From IMG/VR virus record IMGVR_UViG_3300042731_004976, positions 1 to 64,000 of that record: 64,000 bases of DNA; one strand, written 5' to 3'. The stretch comes from a virus. The translations under genes and the position numbers were made by a program. Position 1 is the stretch's first letter, and every line of letters starts with the position of its first letter. The notes under the pieces are model-generated. The model saw only the letters and a program-made list of their open reading frames with translations. It did no database searches and was not told the origin of the DNA. Below, one piece after another: positions 7,232-57,055 of the stretch.

Positions 7232-7647
7232 TGGCGCGTGATTGGACAGTATTCGTTTTCGTCGGGTCCTACCCTTTCAAGAGGGGTCAGACGCCTCCCG
7301 AACACCTAATCGTGTTCGTGGACGACTCTTACACAAAGGCTCGGGAGCGGTACCACGAGGAGAAAGGTGCGTATCCCGAAGCGCACGGCATGATGAATTT
7401 CGAGGGCTCCTCCAAACAAAAAGCGTGGGACGTGGCTTGCAGATCAGGCTTCGTTGGAACGTACGAGCCCCGAGACCACGACGCTGAGCACGTTGGCCAG
7501 AAGAAGCAGACGCTGGTGATCGCCTTCAAGCAGAGCAAGCCCGCAGTCGATGGTTTGTTCTGCCAGGGGCCTTGCAACACGTACTGCACCTACGTGGAGC
7601 CCAATCAACCCGACGGAGGCTACATCTGCCCCGACTGCCGACCCTAG
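7231..7647 (+). CDS. Hypothetical protein with C-terminal zinc ribbon (138 aa)
   Basis: The TGATG overlap fixes the start. The N terminus is beta-type (DWTVFVFVGSYPF). The last 30 residues contain CQGPCNTYC...YICPDC, a zinc ribbon. It is the last gene of the operon that began at 6071. Confidence 0.6.
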   Translation: MARDWTVFVFVGSYPFKRGQTPPEHLIVFVDDSYTKARERYHEEKGAYPEAHGMMNFEGSSKQKAWDVACRSGFVGTYEPRDHDAEHVGQKKQTLVIAFKQSKPAVDGLFCQGPCNTYCTYVEPNQPDGGYICPDCRP

Positions 7648-7665
7648 ATGGGGAAGAAGGCGTCC

Positions 7666-10503: not shown

Positions 10504-10962
10504 ATGCCCCAACTGACCGAAGAGATGAAGCGCCTCATGGGAATCGCGCCTGCCGGATTCGGCGGTCCTCCTGTTCTCTTTCAGAAGGGAGAGTTCTCCG
10601 AGGGAGGCAAGGCTCCTGTTCGAGAGGTCAAGGAGTTTTCCCCGTTCAAGCCCGAAGAGCCGGTCGAGCTGCACGAGGGGACGATGCGTCTCTTCAAGTC
10701 CGTCAAGGAGCAGATGGCGGCTCTGGAGCGTGCTAGCAAGCTCGTACAGCGCGTGAATGCCTCCATTCTCAGGGACCGCAAGTCGTCGAACGAGTCCCTC
10801 ATGAACGAGCGCTGTCGGGCGGAGATGTACCGACTCGACCAAGAGGTGGCTACGGCCATGGACTCCATTCGAGCTGCTCAGGAAGCTCTGGAGAGCATCC
10901 AGAAGGAGCAGAAGGTCGCGTCCCGTATGGCTCGGGAAGCCCGTCGGCAAGGTCGTCGCTAG
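10504..10962 (+). CDS. Helical/coiled-coil hypothetical protein (152 aa)
   Basis: The N terminus is loosely structured with FGGPPVLF, and residues 60-150 are strongly helical and charged (MAALERASKLVQRVNASIL...), ending in a basic tail (RMAREARRQGRR). It is the only gene between its promoter and the palindrome that starts right after its TAG, so it may be a single-gene transcript. Confidence 0.6.
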   Translation: MPQLTEEMKRLMGIAPAGFGGPPVLFQKGEFSEGGKAPVREVKEFSPFKPEEPVELHEGTMRLFKSVKEQMAALERASKLVQRVNASILRDRKSSNESLMNERCRAEMYRLDQEVATAMDSIRAAQEALESIQKEQKVASRMAREARRQGRR

Positions 10963-10986
10963 ACCCGATGCGTCCATATGGACGCA
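10963..10986 (+). repeat. 24-bp palindromic element, copy 1
   Basis: It starts at the base after a TAG stop. ACCCGA is followed by the 18-bp palindrome TGCGTCCAT/ATGGACGCA (10969-10986). The same 24 bases occur at 56337-56360. A leaderless promoter begins 4 bases downstream. It could be a protein-binding site or a hairpin acting on the preceding mRNA's 3' end. Confidence 0.8.
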
Positions 10987-10989
10987 CTC

Positions 10990-11018
10990 TTGACCATCCT
11001 GCGGCTATCGCATAGCAT
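10990..11018 (+). promoter_or_regulatory. Sigma70-type promoter, leaderless type
   Basis: TTGACC (10990-10995), 17-base spacer, TAGCAT (11013-11018). The GTG start at 11025 is only 6 bases past the -10. Confidence 0.7.
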
Positions 11019-11024
11019 GCCGAA

Positions 11025-11405
11025 GTGTCTGGTTCCTTCGGCGCTCCCGCGTCGTACGTCTACTACGAATCGAGGGAGGCGTTGCCCTCCTGCGCATTCT
11101 GCGAGGGGGAGGGTCAGATCGACGGGCCGTTTCCCCTTCCATGTCCGAAGTGCTTCGGGGGTAAGAAAGACATCGAAGCGCTTCGGATGTACCGAGGTCG
11201 GGGCGTGGTGCGCCGTATGGGCTTGATAGGGGAAGCGAATATTCCGGACGACGTCGAGGTTCTAGAGGAGCAGATCCAAGTCCGAGAGAAGCTCAAGTCT
11301 CAGATGGTGGGCTGGCTCTATCCTTCCGTGTTGACGGACGAGATCGCGAGACTTCGCGAGCGTAGGTTTCGCCTGTTGGAGCAGGCGCGCTTCCGCTCCT
11401 CTTGA
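11025..11405 (+). CDS. DnaJ-type zinc-finger protein (126 aa)
   Basis: GTG start in leaderless position. Residues about 23-45 read CAFCEGEGQ...CPKCFGG, the CxxCxGxG pattern of DnaJ-like zinc fingers. A long charged helix follows (DDVEVLEEQIQVREKLKSQ). No J domain is present, so it is not a full co-chaperone. It might bind proteins or RNA. Confidence 0.6.
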   Translation: MSGSFGAPASYVYYESREALPSCAFCEGEGQIDGPFPLPCPKCFGGKKDIEALRMYRGRGVVRRMGLIGEANIPDDVEVLEEQIQVREKLKSQMVGWLYPSVLTDEIARLRERRFRLLEQARFRSS

Positions 11406-16671: not shown

Positions 16672-17685
16672 ATGATCCGAGAGACAACGAAGCGTCAAGT
16701 AGAACCCGAGGGAGGTTTCTACCGCGAGGTGACGATCGCCCTGGAGCAACACTTTCACGACAACACGAAGAAGCCGATCAAGACCGTCGAGAAGGGTCGG
16801 ACGCCCGGCCGACTTTTTCGCAAAGCGAACCCTGGTGAGACGCCCAGCACTCAGCTAATGGACGCATCTTCCTTCGACGTTCTGGCCCTGGTCGAAGTAG
16901 AAGAGCAACCCCAACCCAAGACTGCGGCCAAGGCGAAAGCCAAAGCCAAGGAACCACAACCACAACAACCGGACGCCGAAGAGGAAGAAGCCGACGCAGA
17001 GGAAGGGGCTGACGAAGCCCTTGCGGAAGCAGAAGCCTCCGAGGACACAGAAGACGAATCGACACCCGAGGACGACACATCGGACGAGGACGAGCCCGAA
17101 GCTGCTGAGGAAGCCGAGGAAGCCGACGAAGAGTCGGAAGAGCCGGAGGCAGACGAGGACGAGACTGCGGACGAGTCGGACGAAGAAGACGAGGAGTCGG
17201 ACGATACAACGGACGCAGGAACAGACAACGAGGACGACATGGCCAAGAAGAAGACCAAGAAGACCACCAAGAAGACCACCAAGAAGGCAGCAGCCAAGAA
17301 GAAGGCAGCTCCGAAGAAGGCCGCCAAGAAGAAGGCTGCGCCCAAGAAGGCAGCCAAGAAGGCAGCCAAGAAGGCAGCCAAGAAGGCAAGCGCCTCGGGC
17401 GAGGCCGCGTTGAGCGGACAGTCCGGACCTCCGGTGGACCTCTCGAAGAAGAAGGTCAACCCGAAGGAGAAGAAGGTGATGGAGGCTCTCAACCACGGCA
17501 AGGGTCCGCAGAAGATCCTCGACATCGGTTCGGACGCCTTCAAGAGTGCCACCAAGGCTCAGCAGAACTCGTGGACACGAAACAGCCTCCGTCGGCTGGT
17601 GCGCGGTGGGCTCGTCGAGCAGGTTGCCCGGGGAACCTACAAGCTCACGGACAAGGGCAAGAAGTTCAAGCCGGCTGACGCCTGA
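16672..17685 (+). CDS. Acidic / histone H1-like / winged-helix protein (337 aa)
   Basis: Four regions are visible: 1-85 globular; about 90-188 almost pure Glu/Asp/Ala; about 190-240 a KKAAPKKAAKKKAAPKKAAK-type repeat like histone H1 or bacterial Hc1/AlgP tails; and about 265-337 a winged helix (LVRGGLVEQVARGTYKLTDK). The basic part should bind DNA strongly and the acidic part could mask it. Lying just before the DNA polymerase gene, it may organise or protect phage DNA. ATG 17239 starts exactly at the basic part and could give a second, H1-like product. Confidence 0.7.
   Translation: MIRETTKRQVEPEGGFYREVTIALEQHFHDNTKKPIKTVEKGRTPGRLFRKANPGETPSTQLMDASSFDVLALVEVEEQPQPKTAAKAKAKAKEPQPQQPDAEEEEADAEEGADEALAEAEASEDTEDESTPEDDTSDEDEPEAAEEAEEADEESEEPEADEDETADESDEEDEESDDTTDAGTDNEDDMAKKKTKKTTKKTTKKAAAKKKAAPKKAAKKKAAPKKAAKKAAKKAAKKASASGEAALSGQSGPPVDLSKKKVNPKEKKVMEALNHGKGPQKILDIGSDAFKSATKAQQNSWTRNSLRRLVRGGLVEQVARGTYKLTDKGKKFKPADA
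17251..17394 (+). repeat. Tandem Lys/Ala codon repeats
   Basis: Imperfect repeats inside the coding region, with the 12-base unit AAGAAGGCAGCC repeated in tandem from about 17345 to 17390 and related KKTT/KKAA units before it. Such repeats can change in length by slippage. Confidence 0.8.
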
Positions 17686-20499: not shown

Positions 20500-21327
20500 G
20501 TGGCTGTCACCAAGAAGAAGAGGAAACAGCGCAAGCCGGCCTTTCGGACTAGCAACCCCAACAGAGATCCGCGTTTCGCACGTCTCAAGGCCCTCGCCTG
20601 CTTCGACCAAATCAAGCCAATGTTGCTCGCTGGACACTCCTGCCCGAAGGTAGCCGAGTGGATTCAGGAGGAGCAGAAGGAGCTGGAAGACGCCTCGCGC
20701 GAAGGTATTGTCACGCTGCTCCGACGCTATCGGGAGTCCTTCTCGGACGCTGAGCTGATCCAAGAGCGGATGCCCCAAGTCTTCGAAGAAGCGAAGACTC
20801 GGGTACACGAGTCCCTCGATGAGTTGGCGGAGCTGGAGGATCTATACCGTCTCCAGAAAGAGCGCGTCATGATCGATGTGGCTCTGGAAAGAAAGTTCAG
20901 CAAGCTGCTTCCATCCAACACGCAAGAGATTCGAGCCGCGCGCGAGATCCTCAGCACCATCGCCGAACTGAAGATGGACCTAGGACTTCATGATCGCAAG
21001 CTCGGTACAGTAGACGTGGATGCAAAGATAGAAGCTACGCTCATCGCCAAGCACGGGGACTCTCGTTTGGCGAAGACGCTGGCAAATCCTCAGCAACGGC
21101 AGCGTCTCTTGGGTATAGCGAAGCTCATGGCCAAGCGTGCCGGTCGAGAGGACGAACCTGTCGAGGTGATCGACGTTCCTGGGGAAGCTACGGACATCCA
21201 AGCTTCTCCAGAAGAATCTCCCGTCGTCGTAGACGTGTCCGCTTCGAACGAGACGGAGGAAGAAGAGACTCCTCCCTCCGACGTTTCCTCTTCAGGCTAC
21301 CCCGGTGCGGAGGGCGTGTCCCCATGA
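20500..21327 (+). CDS. Putative small terminase subunit
   Basis: GTG start 7 bases after TACACT, a possible -10 without a good -35. The first 85 residues are basic then helical (CPKVAEWIQEEQKELEDASR) like a DNA-binding domain, followed by a long helical region and an acidic disordered tail. It overlaps the large terminase gene by ATGA, the usual place for the small subunit that recognises the packaging site. Function is inferred from position and architecture. Confidence 0.55.
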   Translation: MAVTKKKRKQRKPAFRTSNPNRDPRFARLKALACFDQIKPMLLAGHSCPKVAEWIQEEQKELEDASREGIVTLLRRYRESFSDAELIQERMPQVFEEAKTRVHESLDELAELEDLYRLQKERVMIDVALERKFSKLLPSNTQEIRAAREILSTIAELKMDLGLHDRKLGTVDVDAKIEATLIAKHGDSRLAKTLANPQQRQRLLGIAKLMAKRAGREDEPVEVIDVPGEATDIQASPEESPVVVDVSASNETEEEETPPSDVSSSGYPGAEGVSP

Positions 21328-23414
21328 TCATTGAAAAGGGTGGGAGGGCTCGGAGTTTTCGAACTCTTGAGGAAGAGGACGCAGCTCTGAAGAAGGAACT
21401 GGAATCGCTTACTCCAGACGAGCGCGATGCCCTCATGCTCATGCTCTCAGAGCTAGAAGAAGAAAAGCAAGACGGCGAGCAGACCCTGATAGATCTCGTT
21501 TCTGAAGCTGAGTACAAGCACGCGATCGTTGACATCGAGACCTTCATCAAGGATCCCTACTACCTGGGGAACACGTGCGAAGCGCTGTACGATCAGCACG
21601 TCATCGACCTAAAAGAACTGTTTAGCGGCGGCTACCAAGAAGCGATCTGGACTGGCGCAATCGGGTACGGAAAGACCTTCGTCGCGTCCGTAGCTGTTGC
21701 ACGGGTCATCTATGAGATCTCGTGCTTGAAGGATCCACACCGATCCTTCGGCGTCGCTCCGGGGTCCAACATTTCCCTCGTCTGCCTTTCCGTAAACGAG
21801 GGCCTCGCGATGAAGGTGGCCTTCGAGAATATCGCGACCAAGCTCAAGGCGAGCCCCTACTTCCAAGAGAACTTTCCGTTCAAGGAGACGAAGAAGGAGT
21901 TCCGTTTTCCCAACAGCGTCTGGTTGGCTGCGCGAGCTACAACCGACACGTCTGTTCTCGGCTTGAACGTGATCAGCGGTCTCCTCGACGAGACCAACTT
22001 CATGGACAAGGGACGAGCGGACGCTCGCTTCGGGTCTGTGGATCACGCAGAAACCATCTATGCCGGCATGCGACGTCGTATGAAGTCTCGTTTCGAGCGA
22101 CGGGGGAAGCTGCCCGGCATGTTGTTTCTCGTGTCGTCGAAGACAACCACGGATGACTTTACCTCTCGACGTATTCGAGAGTCTAAAGACGATCCGACTG
22201 TCTTTGTTAGGGACTACTCCCTATGGGACGTCAAGCCAGAGGAGTACTACAGCGCGGATAAGTTCCTCGTCATCTGCGGAAATGAGCAGGTTCATTCACG
22301 CATCATCGACAAGGAAGAAGAAGAGGTCTTCCGAAAACAGATGGACGATCTTCCGGACGGCATCACCGTAGTAGATGTTCCGGAGGACTTCCGTCTCGAC
22401 TTCGAAAGGGACATTGAGGGAGCGATCCGCGACATCGCGGGGATGAGTACGGTTGCGATCAGCCCCTTCATTCAACGAAGAGAGCGCCTCGTTCCTTGGG
22501 ACAAGCACCCGGGCCATCCGTTCTCCGTGGAGGTCTGGGATCCGTCAAAGCCAGGCAACTTCGTCTGGGAGCGCATGGTCATGGAGGTGGAGGAGACGGA
22601 CTTCAGTGGGTACTCCCACAAGAAGCTTCGTCCTATAGTCAATCCTACGGCTGCGCGTCACATTCACATTGACCCGGCCTACCGAAAGGACCGCGTGGGA
22701 TTCTGCATGGGCCACGTAGCGGACTGGACTGACGTAACCCGTCGCACTGAAGACGGTGCGGTGTACCAGGAGCGCGCGCCCATCTTCCACATCGACGTCA
22801 TCTTGCAGATCGTTCCTCCCGTAGGAGATGAGATCGTCCTAGGGGACATTCGACGTCTCGTCTATCAGCTAGCGGATCACGGTTACATCATCACTGGGGT
22901 GTCAATGGACACCTGGCAGTCGGTTGATGCCCTTCAGCAGCTCAAGGCCAAGGGGTTCAACTCAGAACACCTATCTGTCGATACTCAGATGGATCCGTAT
23001 AACTGCGTGAAGGATGCCTTCTACGAAGGCCGAGTTCGGATCTATGACTACGCGCCGGTCTTCAAGGAGCTTCGGGCTCTGGAGAAGGACGAGAAGAGGA
23101 ACAAGGTCGATCACCCTCCCAAGGGCAGCAAGGACGTCAGCGATGCCCTTGCTGGGTGCCTATTCAAGCTGAAGATGCGCAATGCTCGTCAACCTCTTCC
23201 GATAATGCGAGGTCTGTCGTACTCTCCAGATGCTTGGATGGACGAGCAACTTCAGCACTCCATGGCCCTACATCAAGGTTCCAACCGCGGTGAAGACGGC
23301 CGCTACTACCCGGGTCTGGCGACTCGGGGAGGAGTGCCGCAGGGGATGCTTCCTCCATTCCTTGGGGGAGGTAGTGGTTCGAACGACGATGACGGGGGCT
23401 GGTCTCCGTTGTGA
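21324..23414 (+). CDS. terL: Terminase large subunit (ATPase-nuclease)
   Basis: 696 residues. Walker A GAIGYGKT at 111-118 and a Walker B-type ISGLLDETNF near 215. The RNase H-like nuclease domain has HIHIDPAYRKDRVGF near 445, GVSMDTWQSVDA and the final acidic DVSDALAG. It is the motor that pumps DNA into proheads through the portal and cuts the concatemer. The C-terminal 60 residues are Gly/Ser/Asp-rich and loose. The portal gene follows after two small genes. Confidence 0.92.
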   Translation: MIIEKGGRARSFRTLEEEDAALKKELESLTPDERDALMLMLSELEEEKQDGEQTLIDLVSEAEYKHAIVDIETFIKDPYYLGNTCEALYDQHVIDLKELFSGGYQEAIWTGAIGYGKTFVASVAVARVIYEISCLKDPHRSFGVAPGSNISLVCLSVNEGLAMKVAFENIATKLKASPYFQENFPFKETKKEFRFPNSVWLAARATTDTSVLGLNVISGLLDETNFMDKGRADARFGSVDHAETIYAGMRRRMKSRFERRGKLPGMLFLVSSKTTTDDFTSRRIRESKDDPTVFVRDYSLWDVKPEEYYSADKFLVICGNEQVHSRIIDKEEEEVFRKQMDDLPDGITVVDVPEDFRLDFERDIEGAIRDIAGMSTVAISPFIQRRERLVPWDKHPGHPFSVEVWDPSKPGNFVWERMVMEVEETDFSGYSHKKLRPIVNPTAARHIHIDPAYRKDRVGFCMGHVADWTDVTRRTEDGAVYQERAPIFHIDVILQIVPPVGDEIVLGDIRRLVYQLADHGYIITGVSMDTWQSVDALQQLKAKGFNSEHLSVDTQMDPYNCVKDAFYEGRVRIYDYAPVFKELRALEKDEKRNKVDHPPKGSKDVSDALAGCLFKLKMRNARQPLPIMRGLSYSPDAWMDEQLQHSMALHQGSNRGEDGRYYPGLATRGGVPQGMLPPFLGGGSGSNDDDGGWSPL

Positions 23415-30180: not shown

Positions 30181-31689
30181 ATGGGAACGGAAGCACGGCA
30201 GATTCTCAACGAGGATGCCAAGCGTACGGTAGCCGACAAGAGCTACGTTGGTGCGTTGGTTCGCAAGTGGGGTGAGTTCCTCGAAGGGATGCCCGACCGA
30301 ACCGATCAGGATCGCTACACGCTCGGCGTGACTGCGGTTCTGATGGAGAACGAGTCTCAGTACCTCCAGGGGCTGAACGAGGAGACGCGGACGGTCAACG
30401 TCGGCAGCTTCACGAAGTTCATCTTCCCGGTGCTGCGTCGAGTTTTCCCGAACCTCATCGCCAACGAGATCGTCTCGGTTCAGCCGATGACAGCTCCGGT
30501 CGGTGCGGTCTTCTTCCTCGACTACATCTACGGAACGACGAAGGGTCAGACGACGCAGGGGAACATCTTCCCCCGCGACTTCGATCGGGACTACTCGTCC
30601 GAGTTCATCAATGGTGAGCCTCTCGCCACGGGTGACGGCACCAACTTCGGTGGTGGTGGCGCTGCTCTCGGTGCGACGCTGGCCTTCCAGCCGGTGCGTC
30701 AGTTGGATGCAAGCCGCGGCTTCAGTGTCGTGGTTCGGGAGCTGGCTTCGGACGGTTCGACCGTTCAGGAAGCAACCGACGACGGGACGGGTGGTTTCAC
30801 CTTCAGCCCGACGGGCGGCAGCGTTGCGGGTAACATCAACTACTCGAACGGTGCTCTGACGGCGTTCAAGTTCCAGAACGTTCCGGCGAGCGGAAACGCC
30901 ATCAAGGTCTACTACTTCTACGACGGGGAGCTGAACACCAGGGTTCCGCAGATCAACCTCGACGTGAAGAAGAGCCCTGTGGAGGCGGTGCCCCGTCGAC
31001 TCAAGGCTCTGTGGTCGGCCGAGGCGGCGGAAGACCTCCGTGCGTTCCACGGTGTGGATGCCGAGACCGAGATGGTCTCTGCCATCGCCCAGGAGATCGC
31101 GCTGGAGATCGACCGTGAGATCATTCAGGATCTCTTCGCAAACTCCACCAGCACCACGTCCACGTTCGACCGAGTCCCGCCCGCGGGCATCAACGAGCTG
31201 GACCACCTGCGTGCCCTCATCACGCAGATCAGCACGGTGTCGAACCTCATCCACAAGAAGACGCTGCGTGCGCCGGCCAACTGGATCGTCACCTCCCCCG
31301 AGGTGTCGGCTCTGCTGACCCAGCTCACGACCCACGGCGACTTCCGTCCTCTGTGGGTGTCCGGTGGCGAGAGCCCCTACGGCCCCGTGGACATGCCGCG
31401 TCCTCTGACGCAGCACGGTCAGTTCTCGATCTACAAGACGGGAACGCTGATGAACAAGTGGCTCGTGTACGAAGACCCGTTCTTCACGCGCGACCAGATG
31501 CTCATCGGCCTCAAGGGCGCGAGCTACCTCGACAGCGGGTTCGTGTGGGCTCCGTACATCCCGCTCCAGGTCACTCCGACGTTCCTCGATCCGAACGACT
31601 TCTCCTTCCGCAAGGGTCTCCGTACCCGTTACGCGAAGAAGATGCTTCGGCCCGAGTTCTACGGAAGCCTGCGCATCCTGAACCTCTGA
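30181..31689 (+). CDS. Major capsid protein (T4 gp23-like fold)
   Basis: 502 aa after a strong AGAGAAGGAGAACAAATC. The N-terminal helix, TKFIFPVLRRVFPNLIANEI, then LDYIYGTTKGQT, and the C-terminal LKGASYLDSGFVWAPYIPLQ are typical of T4-type HK97-fold capsid proteins. An inserted beta domain at about 180-265 (VAGNINYSNGALTAFKF...KVYYFYDGE) probably projects from the capsid surface. Codon use is GC-rich and regular, as expected for the most abundant protein. Two hairpins follow the stop. Confidence 0.9.
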   Translation: MGTEARQILNEDAKRTVADKSYVGALVRKWGEFLEGMPDRTDQDRYTLGVTAVLMENESQYLQGLNEETRTVNVGSFTKFIFPVLRRVFPNLIANEIVSVQPMTAPVGAVFFLDYIYGTTKGQTTQGNIFPRDFDRDYSSEFINGEPLATGDGTNFGGGGAALGATLAFQPVRQLDASRGFSVVVRELASDGSTVQEATDDGTGGFTFSPTGGSVAGNINYSNGALTAFKFQNVPASGNAIKVYYFYDGELNTRVPQINLDVKKSPVEAVPRRLKALWSAEAAEDLRAFHGVDAETEMVSAIAQEIALEIDREIIQDLFANSTSTTSTFDRVPPAGINELDHLRALITQISTVSNLIHKKTLRAPANWIVTSPEVSALLTQLTTHGDFRPLWVSGGESPYGPVDMPRPLTQHGQFSIYKTGTLMNKWLVYEDPFFTRDQMLIGLKGASYLDSGFVWAPYIPLQVTPTFLDPNDFSFRKGLRTRYAKKMLRPEFYGSLRILNL

Positions 31690-31809: not shown

Positions 31810-31929
31810 TTGACGTTTGTGCCTCCACAAGCGATCCCTGTTCCACACATGAAGGGACGGGGATTCCCTTTCCATGTTACAGTTCTGAGGTAACGTCCCG
31901 CGTGGACGTATCCAACGGACGGAGGTTTG

Positions 31930-52374: not shown

Positions 52375-53506
52375 CAGGATCTTTTCGGGTCCTTGTCTGA
52401 ACCACCTGCGTCTCTTCCCTGACAACAGCATAGATGCCGTTGTCATGGATCCTCCGTACGGCTTGGGTACGAAGGAGCCGACGCTAGACGAGATCCTCGC
52501 GTACCTACAGGGAGCGGACCTCGATACAGGCGGGGATTTCATGAGCACGGATTGGGAGATCCCGTCCGTACTCGTATGGCGAGAGCTGTACCGAGTTCTC
52601 AAACCCGGAGGGTACGTGCTGACGTTCGGAGGGACTCGAACGTGGGACTTGATCAGCTTGGGTGCGCGAGCAGCGAGTTTCGAGTATCGAGACTCGATCC
52701 CGAACATCTTCCCCGACCTTCCTGGCTTCCTGTGGCTCTACGCCCAGGGACGAGCCAAGATGAGCTTGGCGAACACGCTCGCAAAGAAAGCCACCAAGGA
52801 AGAACAAGAGGCGTGGAAGGGGCTCGACGTTGGGCTGAAGCCTGCTTGGGAACCGATCTTGATGTATCGCAAACCTCTCGAAGGTTCGATACTCGACAAC
52901 CTACGGAAGTGGGGTACCGGAGCACTCAACATCGACGGTACGCGGGTCTTCACTGATTGGAATGAGCCCGACCGCTCTGACAGTTGGAAGCGTAGCGGGC
53001 ACACTAAGAAGCCGGATGCGAAGAAGATCGCAGCTCCTCCGGGACAGGGCATCAACCTACATCCGCTCGGCAGGTGGCCTCCAAACGTAATCTTCGTTCA
53101 CGCTCCCGAATGCAAAGAGATCGATGCGGCTTCGGAGAAATGGAAATGCGCTCCGGGGTGTCCCGTAGAGGACCTCGACGAGGGCACACGCAGGTTCTTT
53201 CCACGGCTACCTCCCTTCCAGTACGAGGGCAAAGTGAGCCGGAAGGAAGCGACCCTAGATGGGGAGCTGAAGAACGATCACTTGACCAAGAAGCCCGTGG
53301 CCGTGATGAAGCGGTTGGTTACTCTTGTTACCCCTCCCGCTGGGTTGGTCCTAGACCCTTACTGCGGATCTGGGTCGACGCTTCACGCCGCCGTCGAGGC
53401 AGGCTTCCGGTTCTGTGGTATTGAGAAGGATCCGGAGTCGTTCAAGACGTCCGTGAAGCGAATTCAACTGGTGGCTGCCCGTCAGGGGCGCATCTGGAAA
53501 CAGTAG
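52310..53506 (+). CDS. DNA methyltransferase, N4/N6 amino class (398 aa)
   Basis: Catalytic motif IV DPPY is at 47-50 and the S-adenosylmethionine motif DPYCGSGSTLHA near 348, so the order is catalytic first, as in beta-class N4-cytosine/N6-adenine enzymes. VWRELYRVLKPGGYVLTFGG and the final GIEKDPES are also typical. It probably protects phage DNA from host restriction. No partner restriction enzyme is seen. The recognition site cannot be read from sequence. ATG 52310 (after GGAGAG) is preferred to GTG 52304. Confidence 0.88.
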   Translation: MAKAHARPPREKKKAPPLDPSNRIFSGPCLNHLRLFPDNSIDAVVMDPPYGLGTKEPTLDEILAYLQGADLDTGGDFMSTDWEIPSVLVWRELYRVLKPGGYVLTFGGTRTWDLISLGARAASFEYRDSIPNIFPDLPGFLWLYAQGRAKMSLANTLAKKATKEEQEAWKGLDVGLKPAWEPILMYRKPLEGSILDNLRKWGTGALNIDGTRVFTDWNEPDRSDSWKRSGHTKKPDAKKIAAPPGQGINLHPLGRWPPNVIFVHAPECKEIDAASEKWKCAPGCPVEDLDEGTRRFFPRLPPFQYEGKVSRKEATLDGELKNDHLTKKPVAVMKRLVTLVTPPAGLVLDPYCGSGSTLHAAVEAGFRFCGIEKDPESFKTSVKRIQLVAARQGRIWKQ

Positions 53507-55287: not shown

Positions 55288-55785
55288 ATGCCGCAAGCTG
55301 GTTTCACAAGCGCTCCGGTTTTGACTCCCGAGGCGATCGATGAGGTCGAGATGTGGGCGCAAGCCGCCCTGGAAGACGATCCCGACGACGCTCTCGCGAA
55401 GATCTCCCTTGCTCTCGTTCAGGAGAACAGGGAGCTACGCATGTTTCTTCATAGAGATGCGGACGGTCAGCTATCGATCTTGCAGAAGGTTCAGCTTGAG
55501 AACGAGCGCTTGGAGAAGAAGCTGCGCGACCAGGAAGATATTATCGGGCGTCGATCCAAGGAACTTCGGGAGAAGAGCCAAGAGCTGAGCGGGTTGAAAC
55601 AGCGTTTGGATCGCTACACGAAGATCCTACACAAGGTAGAGGTCCTGTTGCACATCGCTCGAACGCGCATGGCGGATGACGGCAGCATCGACCACGGAGG
55701 TCCGGAAGAGATCGGACGCCTCATGGGGTTGGTGGAGAAAGAGTACGACAGAGTGGCAGAACAACAGCAAGGGCCTCAGGGATGA
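55288..55785 (+). CDS. Coiled-coil protein (165 aa)
   Basis: Leaderless ATG. Residues about 45-115 form a long coiled coil (LQKVQLENERLEKKLRDQED). Acidic N terminus. ATGA overlap with the dCTP deaminase gene. Role unknown. Confidence 0.6.
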   Translation: MPQAGFTSAPVLTPEAIDEVEMWAQAALEDDPDDALAKISLALVQENRELRMFLHRDADGQLSILQKVQLENERLEKKLRDQEDIIGRRSKELREKSQELSGLKQRLDRYTKILHKVEVLLHIARTRMADDGSIDHGGPEEIGRLMGLVEKEYDRVAEQQQGPQG

Positions 55786-56336
55786 TTCTATCAGACGGTG
55801 ACATCGAGACTCGCTTGGAGAGCGGAGACCTCGTCATACACCCCTTGATCAATTCCAAGTTACAGGTCCAACCAGCGAGTGTGGACCTTCGACTCGACAA
55901 GAACTTCATACGGGTGCGCAAGTCGCACGTTGGGGTGATTGACTTGGCCGATCCCGTTCAGGAGCTGGACCGCGTCACCACTGAAGACTCCTTCGTAATC
56001 GAGCCGTGGGAGTTCGTGCTCGCTTCTACTGCGGAAACGATTCGCATGCCCAACGATCTTGTGGGGCGTGTCGAGGGACGCAGTAGCTTAGGTCGCTTGG
56101 GTCTCATCATCCACGTCACCGCAGGTTTCGTGGACCCGGGATTCGAGGGACAGATCACATTGGAGATGACGAACTTCAATCCTTCGCCTCTTCGACTTCA
56201 CGTCGGTATGCGAGTCTGTCAGCTCTCGCTGGAGCAGATGACGAGCCCGGCCAAGCGCCCCTACGGAAAAGAACGAGGCAGCAAGTACATCGGAGAGGCT
56301 GCGGTGGGCGCAGTCCCCTCGCGGTACCGGCCCTGA
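55782..56336 (+). CDS. dcd: dCTP deaminase (184 aa)
   Basis: QPASVDLRL near residue 30, VEGRSSLGRLGLIIHVTAGF and DPGFEGQITLEM (catalytic Glu) are the family signatures. The usual Dcd length is about 190. It deaminates dCTP to dUTP (bifunctional forms make dUMP), feeding dTTP synthesis. The palindromic element starts at the base after its stop, so it may be the last gene of this transcript. Confidence 0.9.
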   Translation: MILSDGDIETRLESGDLVIHPLINSKLQVQPASVDLRLDKNFIRVRKSHVGVIDLADPVQELDRVTTEDSFVIEPWEFVLASTAETIRMPNDLVGRVEGRSSLGRLGLIIHVTAGFVDPGFEGQITLEMTNFNPSPLRLHVGMRVCQLSLEQMTSPAKRPYGKERGSKYIGEAAVGAVPSRYRP

Positions 56337-56362
56337 ACCCGATGCGTCCATATGGACGCATC
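56337..56362 (+). repeat. 24-bp palindromic element, copy 2
   Basis: The 24 bases 56337-56360 equal 10963-10986. Here the palindrome is longer, a perfect 22 bp (56341-56362, arms GATGCGTCCAT / ATGGACGCATC). It starts right after a TGA. ACGGACGGAGG and a GTG start follow. Confidence 0.85.
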
Positions 56363-56380
56363 CCACGGACGGAGGAATAG

Positions 56381-57055
56381 GTGAGCCGGTTCTTTCTCGA
56401 CACTGAATTCATCGAAGACGGACAAACCATCGAGTTGATCTCCATCGGAGTCGTTTCGGACGATGGCCATGAGCTGTATCTCTGCAACAGCGATTGCGAT
56501 CTCTCGCGTTCCGGTGATTGGGTACGCGCTCATGTGTTGCCTCACCTGCCGGAGAAGAAGTGGGAGCTACGGAAAGATCCGTGGTTTTCGATGATGCGTC
56601 GTCACAAGGACGCTGGGCATTGCTACTACCTGTCATCACGCCAGTGTAGTCGGGCTCACCTAGTTCGGCCTGCCTACGGAGAAGCGGAGATAGTTCCAAA
56701 GCCTCTGCTGCCCTGGGCGACGAAGCTCGACTTGAGATCGCACTTGTGCGCCTTCATCCAGGAACACACCCCGAAGGGGAACCGTCCCGAGTTCTGGATG
56801 TACCACGGCGCCTACGACTGGGTTGTCGTCTGTCAGCTCTTCGGACGCATGATCGATCTCCCTAGCGGTTGGCCGCACCACTTCATGGACCTGAAGCAAT
56901 TCGCAGTCATGTCCGGAAACGAGCGCCTGATCGAGCAACCCATTCCGAAGCACCACGCCTTGCAGGATGCGCACTGGGTCCGGGACGCCTACCTCGATTG
57001 CTTGAAGCGTGATGCCCAGAAGATGCTCGACTGGGTGAGAATGCAGGAAGCGTGA
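56381..57055 (+). CDS. DEDDh 3'-5' exonuclease (224 aa)
   Basis: GTG 5 bases after ACGGACGGAGG. FLDTEFIEDG (Exo I), YHGAYDWVVV (Exo II) and KHHALQDAHWVRDAY (Exo III, DEDDh type) are present and in order, as in RNase T/oligoribonuclease-type enzymes. It may degrade short RNA or DNA. Residues about 60-115 form a longer insert than in RNase T. GTGA overlap with the next gene. Confidence 0.82.
   Translation: MSRFFLDTEFIEDGQTIELISIGVVSDDGHELYLCNSDCDLSRSGDWVRAHVLPHLPEKKWELRKDPWFSMMRRHKDAGHCYYLSSRQCSRAHLVRPAYGEAEIVPKPLLPWATKLDLRSHLCAFIQEHTPKGNRPEFWMYHGAYDWVVVCQLFGRMIDLPSGWPHHFMDLKQFAVMSGNERLIEQPIPKHHALQDAHWVRDAYLDCLKRDAQKMLDWVRMQEA

Follow-up and report, generated by a model that had tools for sequence, protein, structure and literature searches.

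Dispersed palindromes that serve a ParB-family protein are known from chromosomes and plasmids. The parS sites of ParB are palindromes of 14 to 16 bp with a central CG, and many phages encode ParB-like "nuclease" proteins, whose role is mostly unknown. Among other short dispersed elements, the stoperators of phage L5 are asymmetric 13-bp sequences, and the PeSL cassettes of T4-type phages reportedly place an early promoter beside a stem-loop terminator. KorB of plasmid RK2 is a ParB-family clamp that is loaded at OB operators and acts on promoters at a distance (PMC11790492), RacA is a MerR-like winged-helix protein that binds as a symmetric dimer to scattered GC-rich palindromes (PMC5859096; PDB 5i41, 5i44), and phage proteins with the ParB-CTPase fold are diverse and often of unknown function (2025 survey, PMC12704722). 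In the part of the literature that we searched, we found no report of a phage-wide set of palindromes with phage-specific words at gene junctions. The analysis presented here describes such a set and suggests that the palindrome is where a phage DNA-binding protein lands, probably one of the ParB/Noc-like type.

The DNA analyzed (here called the window) consists of bases 1 to 64000 of a 167,992-base IMG/VR virus record. This record encodes a tail sheath as well as capsid, portal, and protease proteins of the T4 type, and it therefore belongs to a large myovirus; searches with the window alone and for the nearest DNA found no cultured phage similar at the DNA level. A preliminary description of the window had reported a 24-base sequence present in two identical copies, each starting directly after a stop codon, with a perfect 22-bp palindrome at the second copy. 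We confirmed the identity of positions 10963-10986 and 56337-56360, which share the word ACCCGATGCGTCCATATGGACGCA, the stop codons in front of them (TAG at 10960-10962 and TGA at 56334-56336), and the 22-bp palindrome (Table 1). The palindromes of copies 1 and 2 are the longest two perfect palindromes in the window, and a search with the 22-mer at up to three mismatches gave 2 matches in the window versus 0 in 100 shuffles. A putative variant copy with a 5-nucleotide center lies in the junction downstream of the major capsid gene, where relatives carry a regular copy. The window also contains a further exact 16-base repeat, CGACCCTAGATGGGGA, at 7639-7654 and 53250-53265, and tandem 12-base repeats (17254-17373) within a gene that encodes a repeat protein rich in Lys and Ala and immediately precedes the DNA polymerase gene.

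Table 1. Palindrome copies, neighboring features, and candidate binding proteins (window positions unless marked as genome positions)
Feature	Position	Strand	Description
Gene upstream of copy 1	10504..10962	+	152 aa; no PHROG hit; ends 6 bases before copy 1
Palindrome copy 1	10969..10986	.	18 bp, TGCGTCCATATGGACGCA; within the 24-base repeat 10963-10986
Promoter-like sequence	10990..11018	+	TTGACC-17-TAGCAT; consensus match only; follows copy 1 and precedes its downstream gene
Gene downstream of copy 1	11025..11405	+	126 aa; no PHROG hit; GTG start; possibly leaderless
Major capsid protein gene	30181..31689	+	phrog_138, E 5.3e-70; query for finding relatives
Putative variant copy	31893..31909	.	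ACGTCC-CGCGT-GGACGT, 5-nt center
dCTP deaminase-like gene	55782..56336	+	phrog_1663, E 4.6e-52; ends 6 bases before the copy 2 core
Palindrome copy 2	56341..56362	.	22-bp perfect palindrome, GATGCGTCCATATGGACGCATC; overlaps the 24-base repeat 56337-56360
Shine-Dalgarno-type leader	56367..56377	+	ACGGACGGAGG; directly after copy 2
RNase H-like gene downstream of copy 2	56381..57055	+	phrog_2259, E 5.7e-44
ParB/Noc/KorB-like protein gene	genome 71882-72676 (outside window)	-	264 aa; PF02195; phrog_26387 "ParB-like partition nuclease"
Tandem MerR-like winged-helix protein gene	genome 78490-79317	-	two wHTH domains in one chain; basic N-terminal region

The element had been described as repeated once, which holds inside the window but not for the complete record, where we found eight copies with zero to two mismatches. 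The exact 18-mer occurs at 10969, 56343, 90842, 101466, and 163420, copies with one mismatch each lie at 126214 and 144362, and one with two mismatches lies at 161277, while a reversed control pattern had no match in the same 168 kb. All eight copies are intergenic, as judged with a simple custom gene caller whose start positions are approximate, and all occupy junctions not shared with the relatives studied. A promoter-like TTGAC motif adjoins four of the eight, and such a motif is in any case present in 20 of the 76 junctions that are 60 bp or longer. The earlier statement that each copy precedes a new expression signal is thus borne out for a promoter at only half of the genome copies; copy 2 has no promoter-like match behind it. 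Near-identical promoter-like stretches (TTGACAAT..TAG.GTATAGGGTA) follow two palindromes, at about 161297 and 163465 of the genome; the first of these stretches contains the inverted repeat CCCTA-N5-TAGGG, a possible operator. Across IMG/VR, the exact 18-mer was present in one extra contig, whose sample of origin also yielded a contig in which the capsid protein is identical. Matches to the core 14-mer in that database were mostly single copies in unrelated phages, and we discarded them as chance matches or other palindromes.

The search of the genome and its relatives proposed in the preliminary description showed that the relatives carry their own versions of the word. The capsid protein query returned 35 related loci, and in the contigs that we fetched and scanned each relative had its own repeated palindrome, with variants that include TGCGTCCATGTGGACGTA, TACGTCCATGTGGACGTA, and TGCGACCATGTGGTCGCA; no site of the tested forms was found in G046 or G049. 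The words are GCGACC-AYRT-GGTCGC in G010, GGACC-ACGT-GGTCC in G015 and G029, GGACC-RTAY-GGTCC in G012 and G053, CCGCCC-GTAC-GGGCGG in G022 (13 copies), and GGTACC-GTGC-GGTACC in G008, and the most frequent logic shared among words is arm-CC-RYRY-GG-arm. Words with a 3-nucleotide center, of the general form GCGACC-ANT-GGTCGC, were found in G048 (GCGACC-AAT-GGTCGC, 9 sites) and G047 (GCGACC-AGT-GGTCGC), and G045 has GCGTCC-AAT-GGACGC. Thus, a short palindrome is present in many copies over one replicon in the phage of the record (8 in 168 kb) as well as in G022 and G048. Over 2.3 Mb, CC-RYRY-GG palindromes are 11 times denser in intergenic DNA (92 sites in 0.25 Mb) than within genes (69 sites in 2.06 Mb). 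The corresponding enrichment is 5.5-fold for AC-RYRY-GT, on small numbers (11 and 16 sites), and 2.3-fold for TA arms with other centers, TA-RYRY is represented by only 2 sites, and the remaining classes of arm and center are below 2-fold. Some lineages have a low site density, and a phylogenetic profile of the proteins of site-bearing versus site-poor phages was void because the "site-poor" G047 and G048 carry sites with a 3-nucleotide center. Two other repeats were seen in these contigs: in the first 900 bases of a fetched stretch of G022, a regular intergenic repeat with TCTCGGAATTCCAAAGATCCGAGCATC at a spacing of about 78 bases and about 25 copies in the contig, and an intergenic 10-mer, TCAAGAGCAA / TTGCTCTTGA, possibly part of a promoter, with 13 copies in G048 and 5 in G045.

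The sites also have preferred positions within intergenic DNA. Between codirectional genes, 38 of 81 sites begin no more than 12 bases past a stop codon, compared to the 10% that random intergenic placement would give, and 31 of 81 end 8 to 25 bases ahead of a start codon, compared to 13% for such placement. On average, each kb of intergenic DNA contains 0.48 sites at codirectional, 0.55 at convergent, and 0.09 at divergent junctions. Sites often lie only 11 to 20 bases before the start codon and abut the Shine-Dalgarno sequence, which leaves too little space for a new promoter. One and the same junction can be filled by different words in up to eight lineages, with the sequence tracking each phage's own word: such sites follow the gene for a 264- to 270-aa protein (G010, G022, G037, G044, G047, G050, G051, and G054), the terminase gene (G006, G008, G022, G029, G035, G037, and G039), and the capsid gene (G004, G010, G029, G045, G047, and G048). 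This is seen most clearly when G048:2308 is compared with G045:71588, where nearly identical flanks surround GACCATTGGTC and GTCCAATGGAC, respectively. The change between these words is symmetric, from GACC/GGTC to GTCC/GGAC, and is the same at each phage's other sites. The view that the palindrome is a defined functional site is therefore well supported by the eight genome copies, the relatives' own versions, and the junctions kept across lineages.

With moderate confidence, we regard the palindrome as a double-stranded DNA site for a symmetric dimer, present as about eight loading sites, with the phage's own ParB/Noc/KorB-like protein as the putative binder. This protein, found in 8 of 10 contigs, has an N-terminal ParB_N domain of the CTPase fold (PF02195, 46.3 bits versus a cutoff of 26.3) and no hit to Pfam HTH_ParB. 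In its AlphaFold model (pLDDT 78, pTM 0.48), this domain is followed by predicted helices that can be aligned to the DNA-binding domain found in Noc, ParB, and KorB. In Foldseek, the model aligned to Noc 7nfu (NTD plus DBD) over 228 columns (E 5.3e-9; TM 0.39/0.46, rmsd 13.8), and alignments to ParB and KorB likewise extend past the N-terminal domain. The TM-scores are low, at 0.3 to 0.4 of the query, which the orientation of the modeled domains may explain. Residues G62, G63, H65, R66, and N102 are invariant, so that GG-E/A-HR and LN stand in place of the CTP motifs GERR and EN (ENxxR). For a ParA partner we used PF13614 alone, which matched 0 of 7 contigs and 14 of 14 control genomes. Three of 261 columns of the ParB-like protein separate CG-ACC from GG-ACC words, two of them neighbors in the predicted recognition helix; since such columns abound elsewhere (185 of 4730 in other proteins), this result is only suggestive, and no column of the ParB-like protein tracks the GTCC/GACC difference. 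Residue-word scans over all shared proteins were rejected as the sole means of identifying the binder because kinship confounds them too strongly. A 1326-aa protein encoded beside the ParB-like gene was considered as the terminase and rejected. The large terminase gene lies in the window at 21324-23414; its product has no PHROG or Pfam hit and was recognized by its 35% identity to the corresponding protein in Stenotrophomonas phage DLP5.

Homologues of the ParB-like protein also occur in cultured phages, among them DLP05_107 of DLP5 and gp23 of RcTiptonus (predicted sites TGCAATCAATTGCA or TGCAATCGATTGCA). Four of five such phages examined have strongly repeated palindromes with other words: CAATCGATTG in RcTiptonus (17 copies versus 0.06 expected), TGCAA-N4-TTGCA in DLP5 (17 copies), TTGCA-N6-TGCAA in PG28 (11 copies), and a palindrome with 7 copies in RHph_Y1_11, where shuffled sequences gave maxima of 2 to 5. 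The fifth, Arthrobacter phage KellEzio, has a homologue and no repeated palindrome in 50 kb. When the public gene coordinates of DLP5 are applied, 5 of the 17 sites fall in gaps between annotated genes; four of the five begin 0 to 4 bases past a stop codon, and two of those end 10 to 11 bases ahead of a start codon with AGGAG between. A word that occurs four times or more was present in 14 of the 28 distant contigs that encode a ParB-like protein versus 2 of 30 control loci, which were shorter (mean 11 kb) and unmatched in composition; in nearer relatives the sites were too sparse for this test. In four cultured phages, including RcTiptonus, the ParB-like gene is followed by a gene for a small unknown protein and then by the large terminase gene, and this position two genes before the terminase makes a link to packaging possible. 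From these correlations at the sequence level we infer that the ParB-like protein binds the palindromes.

An unlikely contender for the same sites is the tandem MerR-like protein, which would bind them in an architectural or regulatory, RacA-like role. Its gene is kept in many site-bearing relatives, it has MerR-type profile hits, the first wHTH domain of its model resembles CadR and RacA 5i44 (E about 0.02), and its residue 119 is Lys in 3 of 3 GTCC phages and Arg in 9 of 11 GACC phages. However, two GACC phages break this Lys/Arg rule, and the gene was not found in the site-bearing G040, G041, G042, G008, G025, and G053, whose contigs are incomplete (one is 110 kb). Among cultured phages, moreover, weak matches were confined to Vibrio phages, with none in RcTiptonus, DLP5, or RHph_Y1_11.

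We also weighed an RNA element, that is, a PeSL-like hairpin at mRNA ends or before Shine-Dalgarno sequences that would end, cut, or protect transcripts, and consider it rather improbable. Both window copies are predicted to form stable hairpins as RNA (-12.8 and -16.3 kcal/mol; z -4.6 and -5.4), and the location immediately behind stop codons, the presence of sites at convergent and their near absence from divergent junctions, and the TTGAC motif after half of the genome copies would suit such an element. A transcript hairpin should favor G-U pairs, but the outer arm pairs of the relatives (4 to 8 from the center, in the orientation of transcription) comprise 33 G-U and 34 A-C combinations, and the center has no polarity (9 ATGT versus 11 ACAT). 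Stems are just 4 bp long in some relatives, one half-site is often GNCC and lacks a pairing partner in G040 and G041, copies 1 and 2 have no U-tract or terminator-like match, the palindrome has no match in Rfam, and canonical U-tract terminators stand apart, ahead of the post-capsid palindrome. Taken together, these features argue for a double-stranded DNA site rather than a terminator. The parity of G-U and A-C, the unpolar center, and the unpaired half-sites support a site read by a dimer, with a weight that is limited by the sites' shared ancestry. Of the functions listed in the preliminary description, the transcript end is thus not supported, the 11- to 20-base gaps before start codons also speaking against it, and a regulator or replication-type site is retained in the broad sense of a probable protein-binding DNA site.

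It is likewise improbable that the sites serve another phage or host protein, such as a global repressor, a roadblock like the L5 stoperators, or a host nucleoid protein. Dispersed, intergenic, lineage-specific sites would suit a repressor with many operators. Against this, the sites avoid divergent promoter regions, no L5-type stoperator was found, no site lies near the two candidate regulator genes, and the 18-mer occurs in bacterial genomes at about the level of chance (three single matches). A mobile or recombination-spread repeat with no bound factor is hardly credible, since the copies, though near-identical within the genome, share no flanks outside the palindrome, and the same junctions are filled by different words across lineages.

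If the ParB-like protein is the binder, a dimer would recognize the two half-sites and load at every palindrome, and it may, by analogy, act as a clamp on the surrounding DNA. The effect would be to mark or organize the phage DNA or to moderate local transcription, and protein and word would have changed together in every phage lineage. Because no ParA was found, classical partition is unlikely, and Noc/KorB-like local or long-range action would be the likeliest mode. We propose only tentatively that a whole group of tailed phages has a ParA-less Noc/KorB-like clamp and loading palindromes spread over the genome, in which the word evolves with the protein and each phage marks its own DNA. If so, such self-marking could serve, for example, in packaging, in DNA organization, or against silencing by relatives. 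The predicted sites in the cultured phages RcTiptonus, DLP5, PG28, and RHph_Y1_11 make the proposal directly testable, and the words (GACC, GTCC, GCCC, and TGCAAT, with 3- and 4-nucleotide centers) would provide natural specificity variants for studies of protein-DNA recognition.

Compared to known systems, the phage sites resemble the L5 stoperators in being many short intergenic sites in one phage but do not match their 13-bp asymmetric consensus. Like the PeSL cassettes, they are short symmetric elements of a T4-like myovirus, some of them close to early-type promoter-like motifs, whereas most of them lack a promoter and their symmetry is at the DNA level. The likeness to RacA concerns the rival MerR-like protein, whose chain has two winged helices. 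With ParB-parS, the phage shares the ParB_N domain and a palindromic site of similar length with a central CG; in contrast, the window contains no parS-like TGTTTCACGTGAAACA at up to three mismatches, no ParA was found, and the phage sites are spread rather than clustered. KorB aligns structurally with the phage protein, but its OB operator is a 13-bp sequence like TTTAGCSGCTAAA, from which the phage sites differ, and these shun divergent promoter regions. Noc and its binding sites, which act in nucleoid occlusion in Bacillus (PDB 7nfu, 7ol9), are alike in having a ParB-type protein with no ParA partner, scattered short palindromes, and a central CG/YR step, and it is Noc that the phage protein matches best in structure. 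The phage differs from this system in its word, its viral genome, and its altered nucleotide motifs, and a block of division has no support here. If the proposed reading is correct, the palindromes would be a dispersed, phage-specific counterpart of the parS, Noc, and KorB sites.
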